This document shows, piece by piece, positions 3,608 to 18,443 of a stretch of DNA of 41,296 nucleotides. The notes under the pieces are model-generated. The model saw nothing but the letters and a program-made list of their open reading frames with translations, did no database searches and was not told the DNA's origin. A program made the position numbers and the translations under genes. Each line of letters begins with the position of its first letter. Within the stretch, counting starts at the first letter, position 1. The stretch is from Bryobacteraceae bacterium (lineage in GTDB: Bacteria > Acidobacteriota > Terriglobia > Bryobacterales > Bryobacteraceae): assembly GCA_030038565.1 (NCBI GenBank), contig JASHSS010000397.1:1-41296 (forward strand), in the 5' to 3' direction.

Positions 3608-5521
3608 CTACCGTTCCTGCCTGCCCCGCAGCGCTGCCAGATTCTGCCTGGCCGTCTCCAGTTTCGGGTCGAGGCTGACGGCGGTCTCGAACTCCGTCAG
3701 CGCTTCCTGTGTGCGCCCCAGTCGCGCCAGCACCGCGCCCAGATCGTTGTGCAGTTCCGCATCGTTGCGCCGGAATTCCAACGACTGCCGGAAGTGTGCG
3801 GCCGCCTCTTCCAATTTGCCCGCGCCGGCGCTCTCATCGCCCCACAGCCGCAGCACTTCGCCCAAATGCTGGCGCGCGCCGGCATCGCCAGGATCCTCCG
3901 TCAGCACTTTGCGGAACTCCGCCGCGGCCGGCTCCCACTGCTGCTCCATCGCCAGCGCATTGGCCAGGTTGTACCGCGCGTTGGTATAGCGCGGATTAGC
4001 GCCCAGCGCGCGCTCGAACAATCCCGCGGCTTCGTTCACATTTCCGGCCGGAAGCAGCGCCGCTCCCAGCGCGTTCAAAGCAACCGGAGAATCCGGCCGC
4101 GCCGCGATGGCGCCGCGCAAATACCTCACCGCGCCAGCCTGGTCCCCGCGCGCCAGCATCAGCGCGCCCAGGTTGAACTGCGCCGTGAACTCGCCGGGAT
4201 ATTTCTCTATCCGGTGCCGCATCAAAGCTTCCTGTAGCTCCATCCGCCGGTCCGCCGCGCCGCGCGGCAAAACTTGGAGCCACAGGTGCGCCATCTCGTC
4301 TGTGGCTTGATTCCCGCCGCGCACGCGCTGCGGGGGCTGATGGGGGTTCCGCGGATTGGCCGCCGAATTGTCGTAGTGGTAGCGCATCGATACCACCGTG
4401 CCCTTGGGCAAAAACACCGGCGCCTTGTAGCGATACACCGCCTGCCAGTTGGGATCCCAATCCGGGATGCGCACCAACCATCGGCGCGCCCCCGAAGGTA
4501 GTGTGGCATAGCCTTCCAATAGGTGGCCCAGGTAGTGCGCGTGCGGATAGACCGCCAGAACGTCCAGGTCCATCGGCGCCACAAAGTCGTCGCCCACGGC
4601 GAAGTCCGCATCGCCCGCCGGGATGTCCAGTGCGCCATCCCGTTCGAGTTGCACCAGCATGGGGAATTTCGTGCCGGGGCGATCGGTGAAGTAAAGCCCG
4701 ATGGACGGCTGCACCAATTCCGGCTTCCCCGTTGGCTGCATGTGCACATTCAGCACGAGGTCGGTGCCCGATTCAGCGCGCCACGCCATGCCGTCCGGCT
4801 CGACCCACGGCGTGCCACCCGGCTTCCAAAACAGAAAGTGGCTGTCGGGATCGAAGGTGTCCGACTCGATACTCAGGTCCATGCCCGGGAATCCCGCGCC
4901 GGGTGTCTTCTCCTGGATGCTGGCCGAGCGGCTGCGATCGATCAGCACATTGGCATGATGCACCGCGCGCGGGTTACCCGGCCGGATCTCGATGGCCTTC
5001 ACCCACCGCGGGCCCGCCATCTTTAGCGGCAGCACGAAATTCCAGTATTCGTCCGGTCCCGAGGCTTGCAGGCGGTAAGCAGCCGGCGCCTCCAGCACCA
5101 GGTCCGGCTGCCCGAGTTGCCAACCCGGGACGAACTTCGGAGCCGGCGGAGCATCGGCGGGCGATCCCGCGGGCGCGCCTTCCTTCACCCACTGCTCGAT
5201 GGTACGGATCTGCTCGTCGGTCAGCCGGCGCTGTTCTTGAAACTCGCCGTGACCCGCTTCGGGCAGCCACGGCGGCATATAGCGCCTCTTGGTGACCGCC
5301 ACAATCTGCGCGCCGCGTTTGCTTACGTCCGTATAAGTGAGCAGAGGGAAGGGTCCCGGCTCGCCGGGACGATGGCAGGGCGCGCACGACTGATACACGA
5401 TCGGAGCGATGTGCTTGTAGAAGGTGATCCCGCCGCCATCCGCGGGCAGCGCGCAGCGGGCCAGCGCCAGCGCCAGGGCCGGCACGAGCGACAACGATTT
5501 GCCCCGGATGGCCGCCGGCAT
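3608..5521 (-). CDS. Cytochrome c / type II copper monooxygenase-like / TPR fusion protein
   Basis: A 637-residue exported protein with three parts. A signal peptide is followed by a cytochrome c domain with haem motif CAPCH (residues 46-50) and a candidate axial Met82 in RRYMPPW. Residues about 130-420 have the fold signature of peptidylglycine/dopamine beta-monooxygenases. All expected copper ligands are visible: His188-His189 (AVHHANV) and His260 (NVHMQPTG) for the first copper, and His327 and His329 (YPHAHYLG) and Met410 (ATDEM) for the second. From about 430 to the end there are TPR units. Eukaryotic relatives hydroxylate substrates using O2 and ascorbate; here the fused cytochrome could supply electrons, which is inference. 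The start is ATG 5521, with GTG 5524 just before it, 7 nt downstream of the stop of the seven-haem cytochrome gene, so the two are almost certainly co-transcribed. The substrate is unknown. Confidence 0.85.
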   Translation of the reverse strand: MPAAIRGKSLSLVPALALALARCALPADGGGITFYKHIAPIVYQSCAPCHRPGEPGPFPLLTYTDVSKRGAQIVAVTKRRYMPPWLPEAGHGEFQEQRRLTDEQIRTIEQWVKEGAPAGSPADAPPAPKFVPGWQLGQPDLVLEAPAAYRLQASGPDEYWNFVLPLKMAGPRWVKAIEIRPGNPRAVHHANVLIDRSRSASIQEKTPGAGFPGMDLSIESDTFDPDSHFLFWKPGGTPWVEPDGMAWRAESGTDLVLNVHMQPTGKPELVQPSIGLYFTDRPGTKFPMLVQLERDGALDIPAGDADFAVGDDFVAPMDLDVLAVYPHAHYLGHLLEGYATLPSGARRWLVRIPDWDPNWQAVYRYKAPVFLPKGTVVSMRYHYDNSAANPRNPHQPPQRVRGGNQATDEMAHLWLQVLPRGAADRRMELQEALMRHRIEKYPGEFTAQFNLGALMLARGDQAGAVRYLRGAIAARPDSPVALNALGAALLPAGNVNEAAGLFERALGANPRYTNARYNLANALAMEQQWEPAAAEFRKVLTEDPGDAGARQHLGEVLRLWGDESAGAGKLEEAAAHFRQSLEFRRNDAELHNDLGAVLARLGRTQEALTEFETAVSLDPKLETARQNLAALRGRQER

Positions 5522-5528
5522 CACACCA

Positions 5529-7106
5529 TTATCGCAGTCCCGGAAGGCCAGGTTCCGACCGCAGCCGGATGTTCTGGGGCATGAAGCGCAGATACTCCTG
5601 AATCACGCGGCGGCTTGCCGCTTCCTGCCCGGCCTTGCCGTAGAGCTGCGCTAATTCCAGGTACGGGTCCGGCTGCGATGGGTCGAGTGCAATCGCGCGC
5701 CGCAACTCGTTCACCGCCTCGCCAATCTGCCCGGAGCGGTCCAGCGCGGCCCCCAGGCAGTAGGCGTACCGCGCGTTGGCCGGCTGCTCAGCCGCGGCGC
5801 GGGCAAAGAGCCGCGTGGCCAGGGAAAGCTGGCCCTGCTGCACCAGCACGGAGGCCAGGTCCGCCTCCACGGGTGGATCCTGCCGCTGGTCCGCCGGTAA
5901 CTCCGAGAGGATCTCATACGACTGGCGCAAGGCCGAAGCGGAATGCGTGTTGGCCGCCAGTTCGAAATACGCCAAACCCAGGTCCCGGCGGATCAGCCCC
6001 GGATCCGGCTCGCGCCACGCCTTCAGAATGGTCTCCGTGCCGGATAATTCGTTTTGCTGAGCGCGCGGAACGCGTGGAATGCTGTGGTCCGTAACAGCGG
6101 AGTGCGCGACGTTCGTGGGACGCAGCCGCGGCATGTGGCAGCTCACGCATTCGTCCGCCGCCGGATGACCCTTCGCCGCGAAAAGACCGCCATGGCAGGA
6201 GAGGCACGCGGCCTTCACCGCCTGCGCCCGGTTCGGCTCCGTGGCATGCGGATTGTGGCACGTGCCGCACCACAACCGGCCGCCGCTTTGCCTGGCGCAT
6301 TGGCTGCGGGCCAGCAATTCGCTCTGGCTCACCGCCCGCAGCGTGCCGTCGGGAGCGGTGGGTAAGTAGGTGACGAACACGCTTTGGGCTTCTTTACCCG
6401 CGTGAAAATCCCACCAATCGCGTCCGGGGTTCAGAATCCGGACCGTCCCTTCCAGGTGGCATTGTTCGCAGACGCTGTCGCGGCGTTTCGGGGGTAACTT
6501 AGCCGGGTTTAGAATCGAGCCGGCGACCGGGTTCTTCAGGTGCGCGTCATGCGGCCCGTGGCAGCGGTCGCAAGAGATCGCCGTAAACGGCGGATCGGCG
6601 AACTGGTTGCCGGTCCCGGCGACGAAGTTCACCGAGCCTGTGTGGCAGAAGAGACAGCCGCTGGAAATCTGGTGCGTGAAATCCAGGTTCGTCTCCGTCT
6701 CGTAGCCCGGTGTCAGGTCCCAGTTCTTGGTTTGCGTGTAATAAGAAGCCGGGGATTGATACAGGTATGAACCAATCCGGACCATGTAACTGTATCCGAC
6801 GATTCCCGCCCCCACGGAATAAGCCACCGGATACTGGGCAATAACTCCACGCCGCTCCAACACATGCTCGACGGCCGATCCGCGGAGGCGGATCGTAACC
6901 GTGCTGCCCGACAGTTTGTGTGCGATGCGGCCTTCAGCAAACACGGACGGCAGCCCGACGGATCGGCCCATTGGAGATCGATCGAAAGCCGCAGCCTCAG
7001 AAGGATGGCAGCGGGCGCAGGGTTCCGTAGCACTGCCCTCGACAAAACAAAGCGGCAGCAGCCCCGGGACCATAAGCCACCGGAGCCACTGCCGCCCGAA
7101 ACCCAT
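5529..7106 (-). CDS. Seven-haem cytochrome c with C-terminal TPR repeats
   Basis: A 525-residue exported protein. A signal peptide (WLMVPGLLPLCFVEGSA) leads into a multihaem region with seven CxxCH motifs: CARCH, CLFCH, CDRCH, CEQCH, CGTCH, CLSCH and CVSCH. The third and fifth are followed by GPH or NPH, as in doubled-CXXCH and cytochrome c554-like families. Residues about 370-525 are TPR units (ARYAYCLGAALDRSGQ, QPDPYLELAQLYGKAG). Multihaem c cytochromes move electrons in the periplasm; some reduce or oxidise nitrogen compounds, but no substrate can be assigned here. I chose ATG 7106 (Met7 of the longest frame) because TACAAT at 7113-7118 lies inside the extra codons, 6 nt upstream, where a -10 box of a leaderless gene would be. 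It is the first gene of a two-gene unit with the copper monooxygenase fusion. Confidence 0.88.
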   Translation of the reverse strand: MGFGRQWLRWLMVPGLLPLCFVEGSATEPCARCHPSEAAAFDRSPMGRSVGLPSVFAEGRIAHKLSGSTVTIRLRGSAVEHVLERRGVIAQYPVAYSVGAGIVGYSYMVRIGSYLYQSPASYYTQTKNWDLTPGYETETNLDFTHQISSGCLFCHTGSVNFVAGTGNQFADPPFTAISCDRCHGPHDAHLKNPVAGSILNPAKLPPKRRDSVCEQCHLEGTVRILNPGRDWWDFHAGKEAQSVFVTYLPTAPDGTLRAVSQSELLARSQCARQSGGRLWCGTCHNPHATEPNRAQAVKAACLSCHGGLFAAKGHPAADECVSCHMPRLRPTNVAHSAVTDHSIPRVPRAQQNELSGTETILKAWREPDPGLIRRDLGLAYFELAANTHSASALRQSYEILSELPADQRQDPPVEADLASVLVQQGQLSLATRLFARAAAEQPANARYAYCLGAALDRSGQIGEAVNELRRAIALDPSQPDPYLELAQLYGKAGQEAASRRVIQEYLRFMPQNIRLRSEPGLPGLR

Positions 7107-7132: not shown

Positions 7133-7161
7133 GGCAAGGACCGGGACCGCCGGTCCTTGCC
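7133..7161 (-). terminator. Strong hairpin after the TonB receptor gene
   Basis: GGCAAGGACCGG (7133-7144) and CCGGTCCTTGCC (7150-7161) form a perfect 12-bp stem with a 5-nt loop. It begins 7 nt past the receptor stop codon and just upstream of the next promoter. There is no T-run after it, so it is either a U-tract-less terminator or an mRNA 3'-end stabiliser. Confidence 0.6.
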
Positions 7162-7168
7162 CCGCGAG

Positions 7169-10100
7169 CTAGAACTTAATATTACCGGAGAACTGCAGAG
7201 TCCGCATTCCGACGCCGTTTACGCCGTTGAACGCAATACTCCCGATCTCCCCGACTGTGGGACTCTGGACATTATTATTCGGAGTGCCCAAATTGGTGTG
7301 GTTGAAAAAATTCCTCGAATCCATGCGGAGAGCAAAGCCTATTCTCTCCGTAATGTGGAATAGCTTGGAAATCGAGAAATCTTCGTTGAAGAAACGCGGA
7401 CCGATCAGCGTATCGATCGGGTAATTGCCGAAGGTGCCGCTCGCCGGATACAAGTATGGACCGGACGTACATTGTAAGTTGGGGCAGCCGGTAATCCATT
7501 GGTTGCGGTTCTGCGTGGATGGATACACAGCGCCGCTTCCGAGCATGGGACGATTATTCGGTCCGGCGCTCGGTTGCACACCGGAGCCATAGTTGGACAA
7601 GCTCGGGCTGAACGGAATGCCGCTGTAAATCGTCGTGATACTGCCCAGTGTCCAGCCGCCCAAAACAGCATCCACAGGCCGGCTCGCCTTGGCGCCAAAC
7701 TGCCTGCCGTGCCCGAAGGGGATATCGAAATTTTGCGCGATGCTCAACTGGTCGTGCGGCAGCAAACTGGTCTCCCCGTATCCCCCAGCCCCATTCTGCG
7801 GGCCGTAGATGAAGTAGTAATTCGTATCGTATGGTCCGTCCCACGTCAAATCCCGCTGGTAGGTGTAGTTGCCTTGTAGCGTCCAACCCTTCAAAGCCCT
7901 CACCGTAACCGTCGCCTGGAAAGAGTCGTATTCGGCATTGGTGCAGTTGCAGTAATAGCTCAAGCCCTGAGTCCATCCGTACACTGCGGCGTACGGCTGT
8001 ACCGCCGTTTGAGTGCTTGGAAACCATTCCGCCTCGTTGGGATTGATGTTGTTGCTCGTGCCCAGCCAGCCGTGACGGGTTACGTTACCCACATAACCGG
8101 CAGTGGCGGTGACCCTGTCCGTGATCTCCCGCTGCACCGTGACGTTATATTGGTAGACCACCGGCATCGTCATGGTAGCGGGCCGGAACTTCGGGTTGAT
8201 CCCGTTGGGAAGCGGGAAGGTTCCATTCGAACTGATCGTGAAGGTGGGAGGTGCCGGAGGTCCCTGGGCAAGGTTAAACACGGCGGCGAACGGCTCAGAG
8301 GAAGGGTTGACCACCTGCTGGTAATCCAAGACCGGCGGGTTCTGGGTTACGTTGTGACCAAACGTCGAGCCAAAGGTCCCTAGATTGTACGACCATCCGT
8401 AGCCCGCCCGGACGACGGTTTTCTTCGTGACTTGGTAAGCCAACCCCACCCTCGGAGCGAAGTTGTGCCAGTTCATCGTCTGAATGCCGTGCATCGAGAC
8501 GCCGCCTTCGCCAAAGACATACATCAGGCCATTCGATAAATTCAGTGTCGATCCATTGCCGGGGGCGTTCACGCTTTCCGGGAACACCATTTCCCATCGC
8601 AGACCGAGGTTCGCGGTAAGCTTCGGAGTTATGCGCCACTCATCCTGCCCGTACCAGAAATAGCGCGGCTGGTGCTCCTGGGCGTTGGTGCTGGAACTCA
8701 CGTACCGCTGGAGATTGTTTACGCCTCCCAGCAGGAACGACGCCATCGCCAAACCGAACTCCGGGCTGGCGCCGACGGACGGGACAAGGCCGGTGTAGGC
8801 ATCGGTGAAGTAAACCTGGCCGGCACGGTGGCTATCGCTGGGGACCCGCAGGTTCATCGCGTAGCGCAGGTCCGCGCCGAATTTGAAGGTGTGGTTCCCG
8901 TGAATCTTGGTCAGGTTATCCACAAACTGAATCTGCCGCTCGCTCTGCGTCAACGGGCAGTTACACTGGTTCACGTCCAGCGCATACCCCAACTGAGCGT
9001 AGGTGGATGCCGCTCCCGCTCCTGAATTGCCCACTGAGCCGCCAGGATTCTGGATTTCGAAGGCGGGCATGCCGGAAGTATAAGTCTGGTCGAGGTTCAG
9101 CCCGGGGATGCCGGCTTGCGTGGCAGGGTCCGTGCCGTAGCCGTTGGGCACGTCATTGACATGATACCGCATATAGCCAAACCGGAATTCATTCACCATG
9201 GTGGCATTGATCGTGTAGGTCCAGCCGGTAGCAAGACTTTGGTTCAGTGCCTGGGAGTTGCCTGCGTAGTTGGCGATATCGGGACCGCCAGCCTCCAGGC
9301 CGAATGCCCCCGGAGCCTGTTCGGTATAAGCGGCGTAACTGTAACGGCCGAAAATCGCATTCTTCTGGTTCAGATAATAATCCCAGCGCGTATTCCACAG
9401 GTTCCCGGTGATGGCCACGGCGCCGCTGGCGGCATAGTTGTTTTCATAATTCGAACCGAACGCGTTGGTATTGGGCAATGGGAAGTAGCTGAGAAGCGCC
9501 TGGGCCTGCGGGCTCAGACGGCTGGTGGGGATAACATTGTTCGGGAACGGCTCGCGGCCCACGCCAGTAGTCGGGTTCCCGGTTGCCGGATCGTAGATCT
9601 GGTAATTGGGGCTGGCCGCCAGCCAATCGCCTAGATTGCCGGTGCGGTCTTGCGAGGTCGGCACCGTCGTAATCAGAGATCCGCCTTGGGTCTGACGGTT
9701 CAATTGCGTGTCGGCGAAGAAAAACAGCTTGTCCTTAATCACCCTGCCGCCAATCGATCCGCCAAATTGATTTTGCCGGTACGTCGGGTTCAGGTTGGTA
9801 AACGGGTTTCTGCCAAAGTCCTGGAATCCAGGAGTGTTATCCTGCAAGAACTCAAAGACATCCCCATGGAATTGGTTGGTGCCGGATTTCGTCGAGTAGC
9901 TCGCCACTCCGCCGCCCGTATACGAGAATTCCGCATCGAAGTTCTGGACGGATTGCTTCACCTCCGCGACCGAATCAAAGGTCGGATTGATTACGATAAT
10001 GCCCAGGATCGGATCCTGGTTTGTGGTCCCGTCCAACTCGTAGCCCATCGTGTCGAAGACTTGGCCGTTGACGATCATCTGCACGCTGCCTTGCGGGTTT

Positions 10101-10633
10101 TCATCCGAAGCGTGCGCCCATCCAACCGGCGCCGTCCCCGGATTCAATAACTCAAAGGCCTGGAGATTCCGTCCCACGCTCGGAAGTTCTTCGATCTGCT
10201 GGGCGTCGAAGGTCTGCGCCACATCCGCGCTGTCCGCTTGTAGTAAGGGTGCGGCGGCTGTCACTTCGACTTCCTGCGAGACGTTGCCCACCTGCATGGA
10301 GGCGTCAAACCGGGAAACCTGGTCCACCTGAACGGTGATGTTGTTCGAAGCGAGTTTCTGGAATCCCGACGCCTCGATAGTCACCTGGTATTGCCCTGGA
10401 ATGAGTTGGCCTTTGGTGTAGTTGCCGGATTCGTTCGTGGTGGCTTCGAACTTGGTGCCCTTGTTCACGTCGGTGATGGTAACCTTGGCCCCGATTACCG
10501 CCCCTCCGCTGGGATCTGTGACGGTTCCAACAATGCTGCCAAACACCTGTTGCGCGCTCAGAGTTCCGCTTGAGCAGAACAGCGCAAAAGTAACCCCTAT
10601 GGCCGCATAGGCCAATTTTTGCAGACTGGGCAT
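7169..10633 (-). CDS. Oar-like TonB-dependent outer-membrane receptor
   Basis: A 1154-residue protein. A signal peptide ends near SGTLSAQQ and is followed by a carboxypeptidase-regulatory-like beta-sandwich at about 30-115 (GSIVGTVTDPSGGAVIGAKVTITD). A plug domain follows (VTAAAPLLQADSADVAQTFDAQQIEELP, with GRNLQAFELLNPG). A long 22-strand-type barrel ends GMRTLQFSGNIKF with the C-terminal phenylalanine of outer-membrane beta-barrels. This Oar/CarboxypepD_reg type is greatly expanded in Acidobacteriota and is thought to import glycans or other large ligands using TonB energy; the ligand here is unknown. The ATG at 10633 has a strong GGAGGGAGGAG ribosome site 6-8 nt upstream. A real sigma70 promoter and a leader of about 210 nt precede it. 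The gene stands alone, closed by the hairpin at 7133-7161, between the haem/copper unit and the glucan hydrolases, and could serve either. Confidence 0.92.
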   Translation of the reverse strand: MPSLQKLAYAAIGVTFALFCSSGTLSAQQVFGSIVGTVTDPSGGAVIGAKVTITDVNKGTKFEATTNESGNYTKGQLIPGQYQVTIEASGFQKLASNNITVQVDQVSRFDASMQVGNVSQEVEVTAAAPLLQADSADVAQTFDAQQIEELPSVGRNLQAFELLNPGTAPVGWAHASDENPQGSVQMIVNGQVFDTMGYELDGTTNQDPILGIIVINPTFDSVAEVKQSVQNFDAEFSYTGGGVASYSTKSGTNQFHGDVFEFLQDNTPGFQDFGRNPFTNLNPTYRQNQFGGSIGGRVIKDKLFFFADTQLNRQTQGGSLITTVPTSQDRTGNLGDWLAASPNYQIYDPATGNPTTGVGREPFPNNVIPTSRLSPQAQALLSYFPLPNTNAFGSNYENNYAASGAVAITGNLWNTRWDYYLNQKNAIFGRYSYAAYTEQAPGAFGLEAGGPDIANYAGNSQALNQSLATGWTYTINATMVNEFRFGYMRYHVNDVPNGYGTDPATQAGIPGLNLDQTYTSGMPAFEIQNPGGSVGNSGAGAASTYAQLGYALDVNQCNCPLTQSERQIQFVDNLTKIHGNHTFKFGADLRYAMNLRVPSDSHRAGQVYFTDAYTGLVPSVGASPEFGLAMASFLLGGVNNLQRYVSSSTNAQEHQPRYFWYGQDEWRITPKLTANLGLRWEMVFPESVNAPGNGSTLNLSNGLMYVFGEGGVSMHGIQTMNWHNFAPRVGLAYQVTKKTVVRAGYGWSYNLGTFGSTFGHNVTQNPPVLDYQQVVNPSSEPFAAVFNLAQGPPAPPTFTISSNGTFPLPNGINPKFRPATMTMPVVYQYNVTVQREITDRVTATAGYVGNVTRHGWLGTSNNINPNEAEWFPSTQTAVQPYAAVYGWTQGLSYYCNCTNAEYDSFQATVTVRALKGWTLQGNYTYQRDLTWDGPYDTNYYFIYGPQNGAGGYGETSLLPHDQLSIAQNFDIPFGHGRQFGAKASRPVDAVLGGWTLGSITTIYSGIPFSPSLSNYGSGVQPSAGPNNRPMLGSGAVYPSTQNRNQWITGCPNLQCTSGPYLYPASGTFGNYPIDTLIGPRFFNEDFSISKLFHITERIGFALRMDSRNFFNHTNLGTPNNNVQSPTVGEIGSIAFNGVNGVGMRTLQFSGNIKF

Positions 10634-10962: not shown

Positions 10963-12702
10963 TCAAGTCCGATTTATCTGCGGGCGCGAAGCTCGTCGGA
11001 AAGCCTCGTGTAGACAGCGTTGGTCCAGCCGAACCCGGCTTCGTTCGAGTGATAACCGAAGCGGATGGCGCCATCCGTCGAAGGTCCCTCGGATAACCAC
11101 GTTATATTTCTCCACGATCACGCCGTCTCTCTGGTAGGAATCGCGCACCAAAGTGAGAAACTCGCGCGAGATGCGATCCGCATCTTCGTTAAATCCGTAC
11201 CGGCGCAACCCTTCCACCGCGATCATCTCCAAAGGAGCCCATCCGAACGGCGCATCCCACTGGTTGCCGCTGACGAACCTGCTGGTCTGAAGCCCGCCCG
11301 GCTTTTCGAACAGGCCGAGGTTCGCTTTGACCCGCGCCGCCTGGGCGGGAGTCGCAATTCCCGCCCACAGAGGATAAAACGTCGTCAGGAACGGATAGGC
11401 CCCGCGCTTCTTCAATTGGAAATTGTAATCGGCATATAGCCCGCTGGCTTCGTCCCACAGCAGCCGGTTGATGCGCGCGGCGCGTTGTGCGGACCGTTCG
11501 TGCCAAGCCTTCGCCTCGGCTGCCTGGCCCAGAGTCTGCAGTATCCGGGCGGTCTGCTCCTCCATCAGGTATAACAGCGAATTCAGGCACACCGGGTTGT
11601 AATGAATGATGTCGATATTGAAGGGCCCAAAACGGTTGGAGGGGTCGAAGCCGGATTCCCGCATGGACCGGTCGCCCTTGTAGAACAGCGGCTTGAACTG
11701 GTCGTGGGCCCGATCGAAGTACTGTGTCAGGTCATAGTCGCTCACGTCATGCGAGCGGTAATAGTCTTTTACCAGATCGTAATGATTGCGCCCTTGGGCA
11801 TCCTTCTCCGCCGACAGCACTTCCGGCGCCGGGCCTTCGCCGAAATCCCAGTACCGCGAAAGACCGCTGGCCTCCGTCAGGTGCGGTTCCGAAGTCCAGA
11901 ACCGGTGCGTGTCGAGCACCGCCGGCACCGCCTGGCGCAGCCATTCCTTATCGCCGGTCGCTTGAAACACCGCCAGCAGCATCCCGGTCAAAAACGGCGG
12001 CTGCGAGCGCGTCATATAGTAAGTTCGGTTGGCGTTCAGAATCTTCCCGTAATTGCGGATCTCGTACAGGAAGTTGTCCACCATGTCGCGGGCCAGTTGG
12101 GTTTTCCCGTCGTGGACCAGTCCCAGCACGATGAAGTAACTGTCCCATCCGTACATTTCATTGAAGCGGCCCCCCGGCACCACGTAGGGAAACGGCAGGT
12201 AAAGCAGCCCCTGCTCCGGCTTGGTCCCTCCCGCCACCGGTAACCGGAGAAGGCCGATCTTGTCGAAGGTTCCCGGTTCCATCGCCTGCCGCAACTCTTT
12301 GCCGATCTCATCCAGGCCGGCGGCTGCCGGAACGTATACCGGCCACCGTCCGTCGGCGGGCGCCGGAAACTTCGGATCCACTGCCGCGCGCGCCAGGTCG
12401 CGGTGGGAACGCGTGAGCGTATTCCAGGTGTCCGCGATGTAGGTCTCGATGGAAACCCGGGCCGGCGCCGTCTGCGCCCACACCAACGCCGGCAGCAAAA
12501 GGCCAACCCAGAGGATTCGCCTGTAAGTTCGTGTCGCGGCCGAGTGACTCGCTGCCCTGGAGACGCCTCCGCCGTAACAGATTCGCGAGACATTGGCGGG
12601 GCGGGCCTTTGGGCGGGGTTGGTGGGACGGGACCACAGGTTGTCCAGGCCAGCCCGAGGGCCTGCCCCACCGCACTAACTCACGAAGATCAACCAGCTTC
12701 AT
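10963..12702 (-). CDS. GH37 trehalase, exported, with a 3'-end frameshift
   Basis: Trehalase splits trehalose into two glucoses. Family signatures are intact: PGGRFNEMYGWDSYF and QWDAPFGWAP. So are the catalytic acid region RESGFDPSNR and the catalytic base region VEKYNVV. Just after VEKYNVV the frame turns to nonsense (IRGTFDGWRHPL). Removing one base near 11094 restores SEGPSTDGAIRFGYHSNEAGFGWTNAVY and ends at a TAA at 10974-10976, so the listed 3' end at 10963 is the shifted one. This may be a recent mutation or a sequence error. The N-terminus is also odd. ATG 12702 overlaps the upstream stop as ATGA, but the next 40 or so codons run through a palindromic repeat before the signal segment RRILWVGLLLPALVWAQ, and no in-frame start codon lies between. 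It is the third gene of the glucan unit. Confidence 0.8.
   Translation of the reverse strand: MKLVDLRELVRWGRPSGWPGQPVVPSHQPRPKARPANVSRICYGGGVSRAASHSAATRTYRRILWVGLLLPALVWAQTAPARVSIETYIADTWNTLTRSHRDLARAAVDPKFPAPADGRWPVYVPAAAGLDEIGKELRQAMEPGTFDKIGLLRLPVAGGTKPEQGLLYLPFPYVVPGGRFNEMYGWDSYFIVLGLVHDGKTQLARDMVDNFLYEIRNYGKILNANRTYYMTRSQPPFLTGMLLAVFQATGDKEWLRQAVPAVLDTHRFWTSEPHLTEASGLSRYWDFGEGPAPEVLSAEKDAQGRNHYDLVKDYYRSHDVSDYDLTQYFDRAHDQFKPLFYKGDRSMRESGFDPSNRFGPFNIDIIHYNPVCLNSLLYLMEEQTARILQTLGQAAEAKAWHERSAQRAARINRLLWDEASGLYADYNFQLKKRGAYPFLTTFYPLWAGIATPAQAARVKANLGLFEKPGGLQTSRFVSGNQWDAPFGWAPLEMIAVEGLRRYGFNEDADRISREFLTLVRDSYQRDGVIVEKYNVVIRGTFDGWRHPLRLSLERSRVRLDQRCLHEAFRRASRPQINRT
12579..12672. repeat. Dispersed palindromic element, degenerate copy inside the 5' end of the trehalase frame
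   Basis: It begins with CAGATTCGCGAG (12579-12590), the same 12-mer that opens the copy at 17061. It continues with GGCGGGGCGGGCCTTTGG-like sequence and ends GGGCCTGCCCCACC (12658-12671). The right half is an imperfect palindrome (GGCCAGCCC...GGGCCTGCC). It sits between the ATGA-coupled start and the signal peptide of the trehalase. Confidence 0.65.
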
Positions 12703-15212
12703 CGCAGCCCGAAGGTCACCTCCCCGGAAACATAAACGCCCGGCGCGCCCGCAGGCATTTCGACGACCACCACGTCCGCGTTTTCACGCCGCGCGCCCTG
12801 GACCGAGACCAACTGCTCGCCTCCGGTAAGACCCAGCCGGTAACTCGCGCCCGCCAGGCCGGAGAATGTAACTTTCAGCGTGCGGGAAGCTTCGGTCCAC
12901 TGTTCGGCGACGACCTTCAAGTTACTGCTCGGCTCCGCCAGGCTTACCGGCGTGCGCGGAATCGTGTATCCGAACCAACCCGTGTGCCGCAGCACCACGC
13001 GGGTTGTTCCCGAGTGCGCCTGGAAGCGCAGGCGCGGATGCCAATCGACGGCCTCTTCGCCGGTTTCCCACGTGGCGGCTGCGCCATCCACTTCCGCGGC
13101 GGTCACGCGCGCGCATCGCGGATATGCCGGGGCGAATTCGAACGCCACGCTCCGCGATCCCGAATTCTGGATGTTGAGGTGGAGCGTTCCCTGGTCGCGT
13201 TCCAGCTCCAGGTCTAGCCTGCCCGAGGGAACCCGCACGCCTTCGATCCCCAGCGTGCGCCATTCCGCCGGAAGGTGCGGCGCGAATTCAACCCGCCCTG
13301 CCGTGGCATCCACCGAAAGCCCCGCGAGGCCGCGCAGCAGCGGCGCAATCACCATCGCGGCCGACCATGTCTGGTGCGGCGAGGCCGTGGATAAAGGGGT
13401 GGCCGTGCTTCCCGAGAGCACCTCCGTGGTGTTGCCGCCGGCCATGAGGGCCAATTCCGCGTTGGCCTGCAAATTGGCGAACGCCGCCTGCGCCCGATGG
13501 TAGCGGTATTCCCCGACCGACGCCCAACCGGTGAACAAGGGCCACACGGAGCCAAAATGGTATCCCGACGGATCGTACAGATTGCTGCGCGAGGAGATGA
13601 TCCGCATGCCCCAATCGGCGGCGTGATCCTCCCGAGCCAGCTCGTCGATCATCGCCGACGCGTGCCCCTGGTCGAGCAGTCCAAACCACATCGGCACCGT
13701 CGCCAGCACGCTCGGTTCGTCCACCGGCTTACCGGCGGGATCGATGGCAAACGAATAGGTGTGCGTCGAGCCGCGCCAGAACAGCCGCTCCAGCGCCTCG
13801 CGCTTGGCCGTGAACTCGGCCTCCAGCGCTGCGCCGCGGGCCGCATCGTTTAACGCCCGCGCCAGCCAGGCCGCCGAACGCAAGGATTCCACGTAGCAGG
13901 CCGCCTGGTATAACTCCAGGCGAACCGGCAATAACGGTCCGCCTTCCACCCACCCCGGCCCCACATTCAGATTTCGCGCAAAGCCGGCGCTGTCGAGCGT
14001 GGAGCGCATGAAGTCCAGCGCCTTCCACAGCCGCGGCGCCTGTTCGCGGGCGAAGGCCACATCGCCGCTAGCCTGGACGTAGTCGCGCACCGCAACGAGG
14101 AACAGAGGCGTGGAATCGGCCGCATTGTAGCCGTAAGGAAAATCGCGAAACCACGGCGTCAGGGAAGCGCTCTGTGAAATCTCGTGGGGGATTTTTCCAT
14201 CCTCGCGCTGGAACTTGGCCACGAACGCGATGGCCCGCCGCGCGCTCTCAAAATCGCCGGCCGAATTCAGGGCGAACGACGTCCAGAAGGAGTCGCGCCC
14301 GAAGAACCACGCGAAGCCCGGGCGGTAGCCGCCCTTCGACGGCCCATAGCCCGCCACCAATCCTTCGCCCAGCAGCGGATTGTCCACCAGGCTCTTCACC
14401 ACGCTGATCCGCGACCAGTCGTATGCCTGCTGGAGCGCCGGGTCCGGCAGGCGCAGCCTGACTGTGTCCGCTAGATAGCCGCGGTAAAAGCGTGCCGTCT
14501 CCTCGATCCGTTCCGCGGGATGCGCCGTCAAATCCCGGTAGGCCGCCAGTGCTTCCTCCAGGTTGTTCAGCGACGCAGTCACGGCGATCACCCGCTCCGC
14601 CGTCCCGGTCACCGTCCCCAGGGTGAACCGCGTCTGGGCGTCGGCAGAATAGTTGGTGGCGTACTCCAGGTCCACCGGCGCGGCGCCTGGCGATCCCACC
14701 ACAGCCGCAAACTTCTGGCCATCGGCGCCCATGCGATACACACCCTTGGCCTTGTCCCACTCCCCGTAGCTCGATCCGAACGATCCCGGCCAGATCAATT
14801 GAAAATCGCGGACGAAGCGGAAATCGACGCGTACCGGATTGCGCGCCTCGATCCGCAGGCGGATCAACGCACCGGCCAGATTGCGCGGCACGCATAGCTC
14901 TTCGGACACGCGGAAATCGTCGGCACTGTAAATGATGCTGTAGGAACCGGCCTTCGACTCGATGCGGCGGGCCATAGCCCCGGCCGGAATCTCGTGATCG
15001 CCGGCGTGAAACACGAGCCGGAAGTCGCGCAAAATCTTGAGCGGGTAAACGAACGTTTCGAGCGTGCCCTGCTCGTCGCCGAACCAGGCCGCCTTCGGCC
15101 CGGTGGCGTCCACGAATTCCCAGCTATGCACCGGCCGCGCGATTTCCGGCTGTCCCCGCAGCACTCCCATAGCAACAAACAACCAAAGCAGGCGCACTGG
15201 GACCGGCTTCAT
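12699..15212 (-). CDS. Glycogen-debranching-enzyme-like (alpha/alpha)6 glycoside hydrolase, secreted
   Basis: An 837-residue protein with a signal peptide (VRLLWLFVAMGVLRGQ). An N-terminal beta-sandwich of about 230 residues is followed by an (alpha/alpha)6 barrel of the amylo-alpha-1,6-glucosidase (GDE_C) type. Landmarks are GGYRPGFAWFFGRDSFW, FQREDGKIPHEISQSASLTPW, YGYNAADSTPLFLVAVRDYV, NLYDPSGYHFGSVWPLFTGW and ASPHQTW. A C-terminal beta-rich region follows. Family members hydrolyse alpha-1,6 branches or related alpha-glucosidic bonds; the exact bond cannot be read from the sequence. The gene starts 4 nt after the stop of the GH13 gene and its stop overlaps the trehalase ATG by 4 nt, so the three are translationally linked. 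Confidence 0.8.
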   Translation of the reverse strand: MKPVPVRLLWLFVAMGVLRGQPEIARPVHSWEFVDATGPKAAWFGDEQGTLETFVYPLKILRDFRLVFHAGDHEIPAGAMARRIESKAGSYSIIYSADDFRVSEELCVPRNLAGALIRLRIEARNPVRVDFRFVRDFQLIWPGSFGSSYGEWDKAKGVYRMGADGQKFAAVVGSPGAAPVDLEYATNYSADAQTRFTLGTVTGTAERVIAVTASLNNLEEALAAYRDLTAHPAERIEETARFYRGYLADTVRLRLPDPALQQAYDWSRISVVKSLVDNPLLGEGLVAGYGPSKGGYRPGFAWFFGRDSFWTSFALNSAGDFESARRAIAFVAKFQREDGKIPHEISQSASLTPWFRDFPYGYNAADSTPLFLVAVRDYVQASGDVAFAREQAPRLWKALDFMRSTLDSAGFARNLNVGPGWVEGGPLLPVRLELYQAACYVESLRSAAWLARALNDAARGAALEAEFTAKREALERLFWRGSTHTYSFAIDPAGKPVDEPSVLATVPMWFGLLDQGHASAMIDELAREDHAADWGMRIISSRSNLYDPSGYHFGSVWPLFTGWASVGEYRYHRAQAAFANLQANAELALMAGGNTTEVLSGSTATPLSTASPHQTWSAAMVIAPLLRGLAGLSVDATAGRVEFAPHLPAEWRTLGIEGVRVPSGRLDLELERDQGTLHLNIQNSGSRSVAFEFAPAYPRCARVTAAEVDGAAATWETGEEAVDWHPRLRFQAHSGTTRVVLRHTGWFGYTIPRTPVSLAEPSSNLKVVAEQWTEASRTLKVTFSGLAGASYRLGLTGGEQLVSVQGARRENADVVVVEMPAGAPGVYVSGEVTFGLR

Positions 15213-15216
15213 TCCG

Positions 15217-17004
15217 TCACCGGATGTCGCCCACGTACGCGCCGAACGCCGGCAGCACTAACTTGTCCAGCGAGGCAGGCTGCCCGCCGGAATCGAAAGA
15301 CTGGGCCAGCGGCGCGAGATTCCGGCCGGCGACTCCCAGTTTGGCCGCATCATAACTTATCGTCCGCGGCGCGCTCGAGCAATTCAACGCGACCAGCACC
15401 GCCGTGCCGTTCGCCGAGCGCACAAACGAGAGCACGTCCGGATTCTTCTCATCCACGATCTTCACGTCGCCTTCGCGCAGGGCCGCGTTCTGCTTGCGCA
15501 ATTGGATCAGGCGGCGGTAATAGCTCAGCAGCGAATCGGGATTCCGGCTTTCCACGGCCACATTGACGGTCGCGTAGTTGGGCGCCACCGGCAGCCATGT
15601 AGTGGCCGCTGTGCTGAAGCCCGCATCGGCGCCCGCGTCCCACTGCATGGGGGTTCGCTCGCCGTCGCGCCCCTTGTCCTTCGGCCATCCGGTCCTGCCC
15701 ACGGGATCCTTCACCTGGTCGATGGTCTTCGGATCGTCGTTCGACATTCCCAGTTCCTGGCCATAGTACATCAAGGCCGTGTCGCGCGGGGTCAACAGCA
15801 GGGTGGCGATCAGCCGCGCGATGGCATCATCGTGCTGGCCATCCCCGTAGCGGTTCCAACTGCGCTGGTTATCGTGATTATCGAAAACCAGCAGCGGCAT
15901 ATTGCCGTGCAGCCCGGTCTCGGCGTCGCGCAGTTTGGCGCGAAACCGCTCCGCGGAGAGCTCGCGGCCCATGCCGAACTGCGTATCCATGGGTAGTTGC
16001 AATTCGTCATTGTGGGGGCCGTACGCCTCGGCTAATTGCTCCACGTCGGGAAGGTAGGTCTCGCCGATCAGCACCGTGCCGGGAACGGCGTCCACCACCT
16101 GCCGCAATTCCCGGTACACCTCGTGAACCTCCGGCAGGTTATCGGTGTGAACCCGCGTGGTCCGGCGGTCGCCGTAAGCTGTGGCGCCGGGCAGATACTC
16201 TTCGTTCTGGAGCCGAGTATCTTCGAATAACTGCGGCACCGCATCCAGCCGGAATCCCGCGACGCCCCGCTTCATCCATCCGCGGATCATGTCGTACATG
16301 GCGTCGCGCACCTGCCGGTTGCGCCAGTTCAAGTCCGGTTGCTGTATGTAAAACGCGTGATAGTAATACTGCTTCCGCGTGTCATCCCATTGCCAAGCCG
16401 AGTGGCCGAAGATCGAAAGCCAGTTATTGGGTGGCGTTCCGGGCTTGCCGTCCACCCAAACGTACCAGTCGGCCTTAGGATTGGTGCGCGACGATCGCGA
16501 CTCCACAAACCAGGGATGCTTGTCGGAGGTATGGTTGAGCACCAGGTCTGTAAGTACGCGAATGTTGCGCTTACCGGCTTCCGAGACCAGCCGGTCGAAA
16601 TCCGCCATGGTCCCGTATTGCGGATCGATGCCGCTGTAATCGGTTACGTCGTAACCGAAATCCACTTCGGGCGACGGATAGAGCGGAGTCAGCCAGATAC
16701 CGTCCACACCCAGTTGCTGTAAGTAATCCAGGTGCGCCGTGACGCCATTCAGATCGCCCACCCCATCCCCGTTCGAATCGCCGAAGCTTCGGGGATAGAC
16801 TTCGTAAATCACCGCGCCCTTCCACCAATTCGAACCCGGGGCGGTTTCGACCGATGCCGACGCCGCCGGCTGCTGCGGTTGCCCGCAGCCCGCCAGATAC
16901 ACCGCCGCCAGAAACGCGGCGGCGACCCACATGGCTCTCAGGCGGTGTCTCCATCGCGATGCCTCATCGATCAACGCGCAAACGGGACCCACGTTACGCA
17001 GCAT
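15217..17004 (-). CDS. GH13 alpha-glucosidase/alpha-amylase-family lipoprotein
   Basis: A (beta/alpha)8 GH13 enzyme acting on alpha-glucosidic bonds in malto-oligosaccharides. Conserved regions are present in order: DLVLNHTSD, GFRLDAVPQLFED (nucleophile Asp), VLIGETYLPD (acid/base Glu) and LLVFDNHDNQRS (transition-state Asp). QPDLNWRN and TPMQWDAG are typical of the oligo-1,6-glucosidase/alpha-glucosidase branch. A lipobox LAGC with a hydrophobic stretch (WVAAAFLAAVYLAGC) predicts a membrane-anchored periplasmic or outer-membrane lipoprotein. I chose ATG 17004 because TATTAT lies 6 nt upstream; the longer open frame back to 17124 runs through an intergenic repeat. This start leaves a long basic n-region of about 23 residues, and ATG 16932 is an alternative. 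It is the first gene of the glucan unit. Confidence 0.88.
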   Translation of the reverse strand: MLRNVGPVCALIDEASRWRHRLRAMWVAAAFLAAVYLAGCGQPQQPAASASVETAPGSNWWKGAVIYEVYPRSFGDSNGDGVGDLNGVTAHLDYLQQLGVDGIWLTPLYPSPEVDFGYDVTDYSGIDPQYGTMADFDRLVSEAGKRNIRVLTDLVLNHTSDKHPWFVESRSSRTNPKADWYVWVDGKPGTPPNNWLSIFGHSAWQWDDTRKQYYYHAFYIQQPDLNWRNRQVRDAMYDMIRGWMKRGVAGFRLDAVPQLFEDTRLQNEEYLPGATAYGDRRTTRVHTDNLPEVHEVYRELRQVVDAVPGTVLIGETYLPDVEQLAEAYGPHNDELQLPMDTQFGMGRELSAERFRAKLRDAETGLHGNMPLLVFDNHDNQRSWNRYGDGQHDDAIARLIATLLLTPRDTALMYYGQELGMSNDDPKTIDQVKDPVGRTGWPKDKGRDGERTPMQWDAGADAGFSTAATTWLPVAPNYATVNVAVESRNPDSLLSYYRRLIQLRKQNAALREGDVKIVDEKNPDVLSFVRSANGTAVLVALNCSSAPRTISYDAAKLGVAGRNLAPLAQSFDSGGQPASLDKLVLPAFGAYVGDIR

Positions 17005-17010
17005 GACTAC

Positions 17011-17016
17011 ATAATA
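17011..17016 (-). promoter_or_regulatory. -10 box (TATTAT) of the glucan hydrolase unit
   Basis: TATTAT on the minus strand is separated by only 6 nt from ATG 17004, implying a leaderless transcript for the GH13 gene. No convincing -35 hexamer or ribosome site is seen. Confidence 0.5.
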
Positions 17017-17060
17017 CGCCCGCCCGGTCCAACGCTCTGATGAAGACGCGCCTGTCACAC

Positions 17061-17125
17061 CAGATTCGCGAGGCCTTGGTGGGACGGCCTTTGGCGGCCT
17101 GGGCAGGCGAATCGCCTGCCCCACC
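17061..17125. repeat. Dispersed palindromic element, best-preserved copy
   Basis: It opens with CAGATTCGCGAG (17061-17072), continues with GGTGGGACGGCC and ends in a perfect 9-bp hairpin, GGGCAGGCG (17101-17109) / CGCCTGCCC (17113-17121), with loop AAT and then CACC. It lies in the divergent gap between the GH13 gene and the glucuronoyl esterase. Confidence 0.75.
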
Positions 17126-17165
17126 CTTCGCTACTGGCCATCGACACTCCCTAAGCTGCCGGCGC

Positions 17166-17171
17166 TACAAT
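17166..17171 (+). promoter_or_regulatory. -10 box (TACAAT) of the esterase/SMP-30 unit
   Basis: TACAAT ends 9 nt before ATG 17181, so the predicted transcript has almost no leader. This fixes the esterase start, because the frame is otherwise open back to 17040 through the repeat. Confidence 0.5.
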
Positions 17172-17180
17172 CGCTACATC

Positions 17181-18443
17181 ATGCGATCCGCTGCCCTTCT
17201 TCTTCTGCCGCTGGCCGCCGGGTTGGCGCAGCGCCCGGACGTGATCCTCGACGAAGCCAAGGTCCCCGCCTATACTCTGCCGGATGTGCTCGGACCAGTG
17301 CGCAGCCCGAAGGCGTGGCCGGCGCGGCGGGAGCAGATTCTGGAACTATACAGGACGGAAGTCTTCGGGCGCAGCCCCGGCCGGCCCGCCAACCAGATTT
17401 TCACGGTCGAAGCCGTGGATCAAGCAGCTCTCGGCGGACGCGCCGTGCGTAAGCTGGTGACCATCTCTTTCGGCGCCGGTCCGCAGATGCACATGCTGCT
17501 GTACCTGCCGGCGGGCAAACCGGCTGCTCCGGTGTTTCTCGGTTTGTCGTTTGCCGGAAACCAGACCGTCTGCAACGACCCCGGCGTGCCGCTGGCCGAG
17601 GAGTGGGTGCGTGATCGTGATACCAAACAGATGGTGAAGCGCACGGCGCCCGAATCCTCGCGCGGCAGCAGGGCGTCCCAGTGGCAACTCGACGCCATCC
17701 TGGAACACGGCTACGGCCTGGCAACCATTTATTATGGCGATATCGAGCCGGATTTCGACGGCGGCATGAAATACGGCGTACGCCCGCTGTTCTTTCGTCC
17801 CGGCCAGACGGAGCCGGCCGCCGACGATTGGGCCGCCATCGGCGCGTGGGCGTGGGGTTTGAGCCGCGCCATGGATTACCTGGAAACCGACCGCGGCGTG
17901 GATGCCCGGCATGTGGCGGTCTTCGGCCACTCACGCCTCGGCAAAACGGCTTTGTGGGCCGGCGCGCAGGACACGCGCTTCGCCATGGTGATCTCGAACG
18001 AATCCGGCGAGGGCGGCGCTTCCATCAGCCGGCGCGATTTCGGCGAGCGCACCACCGACCTCAACACCCACTTCCCCCACTGGTTCTGCCTGAACTTCCG
18101 CCAGTACAACGGCCGCGAAGACCAGATGCCCTTCGACTCGCATTTCCTGCTGGCGCTGACCGCCCCGCGGGCGCTGTACATCGCCAGCGCCGAGGGCGAC
18201 CTTGAGTCGGACCCGCGCGGAGAGTTTCTGGCCGCCGTGAACGCTTCGCCCGTCTGGGAGTTGTTGGGAAAGCCCGGCATCGGCACCGACCGCATGCCGG
18301 CGGTACACCAGCCCATCATGCATACGGTGGCCTATCACATCCGCGCGGGCAAACACGATGTTACGGCTTACGACTGGACGCAGTATTTGAAGTTTGCAGA
18401 TATCCAGTGGGGCCCGGCGCGCCGGAATGGGCGGTCCAGGTGA
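17181..18443 (+). CDS. CE15 glucuronoyl esterase-like alpha/beta hydrolase, secreted
   Basis: A 420-residue protein with a signal peptide (MRSAALLLLPLAAGLAQ). Glucuronoyl esterases cut the ester between lignin alcohols and 4-O-methyl-glucuronic acid side chains of xylan. The nucleophile elbow is VFGHSRLGKTALWAG with Ser251 (family GCSRxGK, here His in place of Cys). The following ISNESGEGGASISRRDFGE supplies the conserved Glu region around 274-277. RAGKHDVTAYDW near 390 carries the candidate catalytic His392. The stretch LSFAGNQTVCNDPGVPL and the SQWQLDAILEHGYGLATIYYGDIEPD region are typical of bacterial CE15 enzymes. ATG 17181 is preceded by TACAAT and coincides with the signal peptide start. 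It is followed after 11 nt by the SMP-30 gene, on the same strand. Confidence 0.85.
   Translation: MRSAALLLLPLAAGLAQRPDVILDEAKVPAYTLPDVLGPVRSPKAWPARREQILELYRTEVFGRSPGRPANQIFTVEAVDQAALGGRAVRKLVTISFGAGPQMHMLLYLPAGKPAAPVFLGLSFAGNQTVCNDPGVPLAEEWVRDRDTKQMVKRTAPESSRGSRASQWQLDAILEHGYGLATIYYGDIEPDFDGGMKYGVRPLFFRPGQTEPAADDWAAIGAWAWGLSRAMDYLETDRGVDARHVAVFGHSRLGKTALWAGAQDTRFAMVISNESGEGGASISRRDFGERTTDLNTHFPHWFCLNFRQYNGREDQMPFDSHFLLALTAPRALYIASAEGDLESDPRGEFLAAVNASPVWELLGKPGIGTDRMPAVHQPIMHTVAYHIRAGKHDVTAYDWTQYLKFADIQWGPARRNGRSR

Follow-up and report, generated by a model that had tools for sequence, protein, structure and literature searches.

A bacterial family of PHM/DBM-like dicopper proteins with a fused cytochrome c domain, predicted to be copper monooxygenases

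INTRODUCTION

PHM and DBM, which act in animals in peptide hormone synthesis and noradrenaline synthesis, respectively, are standard examples of enzymes that depend on ascorbate, and it has long been asked how electrons enter their copper sites and move between them. A locus in a Bryobacteraceae bacterium (Acidobacteriota) raises the question of whether bacterial relatives of these enzymes carry an electron supply of their own. In the 41,296-nucleotide (nt) stretch of DNA that we analysed (hereafter, the window; contig JASHSS010000397.1 of assembly GCA_030038565.1), a gene at 3608–5521 encodes a protein comprising a cytochrome c domain, a PHM/DBM-like dicopper domain, and tetratricopeptide repeats (TPRs), here termed the copper protein, and the gene directly upstream, at 5529–7106, encodes a seven-haem cytochrome. 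The initial annotation of the window proposed that electrons reach the copper sites through the fused haem domain and the seven-haem protein, and that the TPRs dock the two proteins.

Our analysis indicates that the haem-copper fusion is how members of a very large and as yet uncharacterised family of bacterial proteins are normally built, and that the seven-haem protein is an occasional neighbour of it. The reading that we favour, and consider somewhat probable, is that the copper protein is a secreted bacterial monooxygenase of the copper type II class, in which the fused c-type cytochrome serves as an internal electron relay.

RESULTS

Kinship of the copper domain with PHM and DBM

The copper protein has a signal-peptide-like N-terminus and contains the motifs C47-A-P-C50-H51, H189-H190, H261, H328-x-H330, and D409-E410-M411; that is, a full PHM/DBM copper-ligand set lies behind a CAPCH domain and ahead of a TPR tail, just as the initial annotation had read it. 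Searched as a single sequence against Pfam, the protein matches Cu2_monoox_C (PF03712) at 16–17.5 bits, under the 23-bit gathering cut-off, which is a database convention and not a biochemical criterion. At E ≤ 0.01, PF03712 matches 50 of 77 relatives and PF01082 matches 15. Because a PF03712 search of the source genome (870 contigs, 8.1 Mb) missed the window copy, protein and profile queries were used instead. A profile built from the 77 relatives matches rat PHM with E = 5e-14, covering positions 23–286 of 288, and matches DBH with E = 4e-6.

The profile alignment with PHM places HH, H, HxH, and DEM, and with them all six copper ligands, in register. Specifically, H189, H190, and H261 align with CuH ligands H107, H108, and H172 of PHM, while H328, H330, and M411 align with CuM ligands H242, H244, and M314. 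All six residues, including each CuH ligand, are 99–100% conserved in 103 relatives that are 24–87% identical in the copper domain, and the CuM set is kept in 76 of the 77 domains of the profile. Haem residues C47, C50, and H51, and distal-type M83, are conserved to the same degree (99–100% of the 103; all four invariant in 102 relatives). Since copper and haem ligands are both retained at this level, their conservation, judged as a property of the sequences, is far beyond chance.

The structure prediction that the initial annotation had suggested as a check yielded a PHM-type beta fold. The AlphaFold2 model (predicted local distance difference test score, pLDDT, 77.8; built on an 8-sequence alignment) matches PHM structures (3mll, E = 1.3e-9, target template-modelling score about 0.6) as well as TPR proteins. 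From sequence comparison and modelling, the copper protein appears to belong with the copper type II (PHM/DBM) monooxygenases as a variant, and its catalysis is predicted. A search of plasmids returned, among the matches listed, only matches to the TPR region.

The cytochrome-copper fusion in at least three phyla

Pfam Cytochrome_CBB3 weakly matches residues 41–88 of the copper protein. A CxxCH motif and a distal methionine, the two marks of a class I c-type cytochrome, are both present, and haem attachment is predicted. Our first homologue search used the cytochrome and copper domains together as the query and so presupposed the fusion; to assess how general the fusion is, the copper domain was searched alone. 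This search found the domain in 83 of 199 Planctomycetota genomes, and an in-frame CxxCH lies 83–92 residues upstream in 41 of the 44 copper domains read. In Acidobacteriota, the domain is present in 41 of 199 genomes, with up to 17 copies each, and a CxxCH lies 44–102 residues upstream in 23 of 25 further, weaker copper domains.

Taken together, the domain-only searches of the two phyla give 64 of 69 copper domains with a CxxCH 44–102 residues upstream. In three of the five exceptions, the gene looks interrupted or incomplete: a TAG separates the haem and copper parts in L222, the upstream frame is not open and looks frame-broken in L158, and the L221 domain is a short fragment. The other two exceptions are L161 and L192. 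An Armatimonadota member (L041) has the same domain order as the window protein. Because the 64 domains and L041 all carry the upstream CxxCH, we take the combination of cytochrome c and PHM-like domain, as read from sequence, to be the standard form of a bacterial family in at least three phyla. The two-site ligand set, the PHM-like fold, and the haem motif with its distal methionine are conserved together in three phyla. The fusion described by the initial annotation is thus strongly supported, as a near-universal feature of the family and not a peculiarity of this locus.

Six Acidobacteriota genomes (G108, G117, G135, G160, G167, and G184) show a large expansion, with up to 15–17 cytochrome-copper paralogues per genome. 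Our search of the open-access literature turned up no work on a cytochrome-PHM fusion in bacteria; subscription papers were mostly outside this search, which does not prove novelty.

Substrate residues and a non-monooxygenase alternative

In PHM, R240, Y318, and N316 bind the carboxylate and backbone of peptidylglycine. The equivalents of R240, N316, and Y318 in the window protein are Y326, H413, and W415, and these positions are variable across the family. The disulfide-bonded core of PHM is likewise absent from the window protein and from the family: no cysteine is present in 50 of 77 copper domains, and the window protein has only C24, C47, and C50. Since the PHM substrate residues and the disulfides are missing, the substrate is probably not a peptide with a C-terminal glycine. 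We rejected a peptide-amidating role (PHM proper) on account of the three replaced residues.

The same replacements could point away from a monooxygenase altogether, to a PHM-fold copper protein that serves as a peroxygenase, a copper carrier, or an oxidase, for which the redoxin described below could handle peroxide. However, both copper sites retain complete catalytic ligands, the CuM methionine included, and we judge this alternative quite improbable.

A two-cysteine redoxin as the widely shared partner

Our neighbourhood survey covered 108 copper genes. A redoxin/AhpC-TSA-type gene lies directly upstream on the same strand at 16 of the 108 loci, in Acidobacteriota, and a redoxin is fused at the N-terminus of the copper protein in L041, L104, and L106. 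Among the Planctomycetota loci examined, the redoxin is fused in about half and adjacent in three more. Its two cysteines, in [DE]CPxS and in a C-terminal GC, are kept in 31 of 32 sequences. The widely shared partner of the family is therefore this two-cysteine redoxin, adjacent or fused, and not the seven-haem protein. Genes for TonB-type receptors and for ASPIC/UnbV proteins are common near the 108 copper genes, too. In the fused proteins, the C-terminal GC of the redoxin sits just ahead of the cytochrome; the conserved cysteines may form a thiol or metal site. The redoxin, as the commonest neighbour, had been overlooked in the initial annotation.

A redoxin partner bears on how the copper sites are fed. 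The enzyme might be a monooxygenase supplied by a small reductant or by the redoxin, with a haem domain that is structural, senses O2 or redox state, or acts as a copper-protecting electron sink; redoxin is found next to, or fused with, the copper protein far more often than any multihaem protein is, its two cysteines are kept, and eukaryotic PHM and DBM function without a haem domain. Yet essentially every intact member has the haem domain with its distal methionine, even where no redoxin is nearby, and no redoxin gene adjoins the window copper gene, the best match in the source genome being on contig C230. We consider this explanation unlikely.

The seven-haem protein as an occasional neighbour

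The seven-haem protein contains exactly seven CxxCH motifs and C-terminal TPRs, and its gene ends 7 nt before the ATG of the copper gene, as the initial annotation had stated. We infer from gene spacing alone that the two genes share a transcript. The multiple CxxCH motifs have conserved spacing, and the protein resembles NrfB/MtrA/c554-like cytochromes at the family level; its family profile matches multihaem cytochromes, among them PDB 6i5b (E = 2e-24).

The survey of co-occurrence that the initial annotation had called for did not find the two genes together across the family. A seven-haem gene is near the copper gene at 5 of 108 loci (the window, L035, L036, L049, and L050), and seven-haem relatives are present in 174 of 396 genomes, whereas the copper gene is present in 89 of 396. 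On these counts we rejected the idea that the two genes form a conserved system. The genes adjoin in the window. In L035, the closest relative, whose copper protein is 82% identical, the adjoining upstream seven-haem protein belongs to another subfamily (24% identity). In L036, the copper gene has a close seven-haem relative next to it, divergently oriented and at a contig end, and in L049 and L050 a redoxin gene lies between the seven-haem and copper genes. An eight-haem gene is convergent with the copper gene in L052. In a tree of copper domains, the five seven-haem-linked loci form two groups within one 16-member clade. The seven-haem protein of L035 (255–2153), directly 5′ of the copper gene, has a PPIC-type rotamase domain that lies between its haem part and its TPRs.

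Related operons occur with and without the copper gene. The gene order in genomes G370 and G103 is TonB, (TPR), seven-haem, redoxin, copper enzyme, TPR, ASPIC; genomes G094 and G163 have this operon but lack both redoxin and copper enzyme, with identities to the former pair of 57–90% (TonB), 68–75% (seven-haem), about 75% (TPR), and 92% (ASPIC). Because redoxin and copper enzyme are missing together, they behave as a single cassette, and because the operon is kept without them, the seven-haem protein has a role independent of that cassette. Four loci of one genus (L049, L050, L130, and L131) have the TonB/TPR/seven-haem/TPR/ASPIC operon with or without an inserted redoxin and cytochrome-copper cassette; the L049 operon is headed by a TonB receptor 37% identical to that of the window (7169–10633).

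These operons give substance to the explanation that the seven-haem protein is part of a TonB/TPR/ASPIC redox module of its own, partly carbohydrate-linked, that does not feed the copper enzyme and into whose operon the copper gene was inserted. The gene-for-gene match of the operons minus the cassette, the wider distribution of seven-haem relatives, and their placement near trehalase, glycoside hydrolase (GH), or ASPIC genes all favour it. Against it, the same upstream place is taken in L035 by a seven-haem protein of quite another kind, and L036 has a close relative in the opposite orientation; such re-arrangement, and replacement by a non-orthologous gene, suggest that a functional link has been maintained, one that is not idle in this lineage. 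We give this explanation an even chance. It bears on the partner claim only and is compatible with the core of the favoured reading, a monooxygenase with its own cytochrome.

A dedicated seven-haem partnership, as put forward in the initial annotation, is therefore weakly indicated, and is not supported as a general feature of the family, given the 5 of 108 loci, the other subfamily in L035, and the copper-less operons of G094 and G163; sequence gives no verdict either way on whether the seven-haem protein delivers electrons. We found no evidence for docking by the TPRs, which are of a generic kind and which many family members lack.

Genes and features of the window

Coordinates are collected in Table 1; those given by the initial annotation for the two genes, and the motifs, are all correct.

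Table 1. Features of the copper-protein locus and examples of redoxin genes at related loci (aa, amino acids; ORF, open reading frame)
Feature	Coordinates	Strand	Remarks
Cytochrome c, PHM-like dicopper, TPR protein	3608–5521	−	637 aa from ATG at 5521; ORF from GTG 5524, 638 aa
Class I-type cytochrome c domain, ~aa 34–86	5267–5425	−	C47-C50-H51 haem motif; M83 (MPPW) probable distal ligand
PHM/DBM-like dicopper domain, ~aa 130–420	4265–5137	−	CuH H189, H190, H261; CuM H328, H330, M411
C-terminal TPRs of copper protein, about aa 445–638	3608–4192	−	Pfam and structure model
Seven-haem cytochrome with C-terminal TPRs	5529–7106	−	ATG 7106; ORF from GTG 7124
Seven-haem core	6015–7043	−	CxxCH spacings 121/28/34/67/21/19, near those of related seven-haem proteins
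GC-rich hairpin GGCAAGGACCGG / CCGGTCCTTGCC	7134–7163	−	No T-run; between TonB gene and seven-haem gene
TonB-dependent outer-membrane receptor (CarboxypepD_reg and OMP_b-brl_4)	7169–10633	−	Upstream gene, same strand as seven-haem gene
Trehalase	10963–12702	−	Further upstream, same strand
MGH1-like glycoside hydrolase	12699–15212	−	Same strand as copper gene
Alpha-amylase family enzyme	15217–17124	−	Same strand as copper gene
Redoxin genes, examples	L049:5903–6598; L046:2065–2568	+	Two conserved Cys

The copper gene is the end of a co-directional run that includes the alpha-amylase, MGH1-like hydrolase, trehalase, and TonB receptor genes. Within the run, a near-perfect hairpin (−32.5 kcal/mol, z −3.8) parts the TonB gene from the seven-haem gene; it may mark a boundary between transcripts or shield the end of an mRNA. 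The gene content would make a sugar-related substrate possible at this locus; we keep this as a possibility only, since the few classified neighbours of copper-gene relatives showed no consistent sugar link. Related seven-haem genes in L125 and L127 lie beside MGH1-like GH or trehalase genes. A glucuronyl-esterase-like protein (PF22244) is encoded at 17040–18443 (+), near the carbohydrate gene block. A TPR protein at 935–2185 (−) scores above the NCBIfam MamA (magnetosome) cut-off (215.9 versus 200 bits), probably as a generic TPR match; other magnetosome genes were not searched for.

DISCUSSION

On the favoured reading, the copper enzyme would be periplasmic or at the cell surface, where periplasmic one-electron carriers would reduce the class I cytochrome domain. 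The cytochrome domain would in turn reduce the copper centres, replacing ascorbate; O2 would be activated at CuM, and a substrate other than peptidylglycine would be hydroxylated. Electron flow through the fused haem is plausible, because the haem domain is constant, lies at near-constant spacing, and has a precedent in cytochrome-fed lytic polysaccharide monooxygenases (LPMOs). The accessory steps are proposed more tentatively: the seven-haem protein may be one of the donors further up the chain at the window locus, taken on by a small lineage of Acidobacteriota, and the redoxin may be the linked accessory in much of the family, as a thiol reductant or for copper handling or peroxide removal.

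Several points weigh against these proposals. We found no family member of known activity, and the cytochrome part of the AlphaFold2 model is of low confidence, with block pLDDT down to 42. Alternatively, the constant fused haem could have a structural role, act as a sensor, or accept electrons. As to the seven-haem donor, its relatives are mostly located away from the copper gene, and the gene is absent beside most copper-gene relatives.

A bolder version would describe a dicopper class with an obligatory cytochrome that uses redoxin and not ascorbate, of which a few Acidobacteriota members have been plugged into a seven-haem/TonB module within a trehalose/alpha-glucan block, forming a multihaem-fed surface or periplasmic hydroxylase; we regard it as possible but doubtful.

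A family with built-in haem would be a natural system for following single-electron entry into the copper sites, and it suggests that single genomes of abundant soil bacteria encode as many as 17 oxygenases, probably secreted, that await characterisation.

Comparison with known systems places the family as follows. With PHM (PDB 1phm, 1opm, 1sdw), the window protein shares the fold, the CuH (HH, H) and CuM (HxH, M) ligands, and the VHH, VLxVH, PHxH, and DEM motif contexts. It differs in having an N-terminal cytochrome c and a TPR tail and no PAL partner domain, in scoring under the Pfam cut-off, and in belonging to a family where R240, N316, Y318, and the disulfides are not conserved. DBH (PDB 4zel) is of the same superfamily and likewise has an N-terminal domain ahead of its catalytic core, but the similarity is weaker than to PHM, and the N-terminal domain of DBH is a DOMON domain, whereas that of the bacterial protein is a c-type cytochrome. 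The multihaem cytochromes matched by the seven-haem profile (PDB 6i5b, 6r2q, 6qvm, NrfB 2ozy, c554 1bvb) differ from the window protein, which has seven haems with a long spacing between the first two motifs and ends in a TPR domain. The c-type cytochrome CjX183 (from Cbp2D) of Cellvibrio japonicus was shown to reduce bacterial LPMOs and thereby activate them (PMC8981238). There, as is proposed here, a c-type cytochrome in place of ascorbate supplies electrons to a bacterial copper monooxygenase; however, the LPMO is a separate protein of unrelated copper fold, whereas a two-site PHM-type domain is fused to the cytochrome in the family described here.

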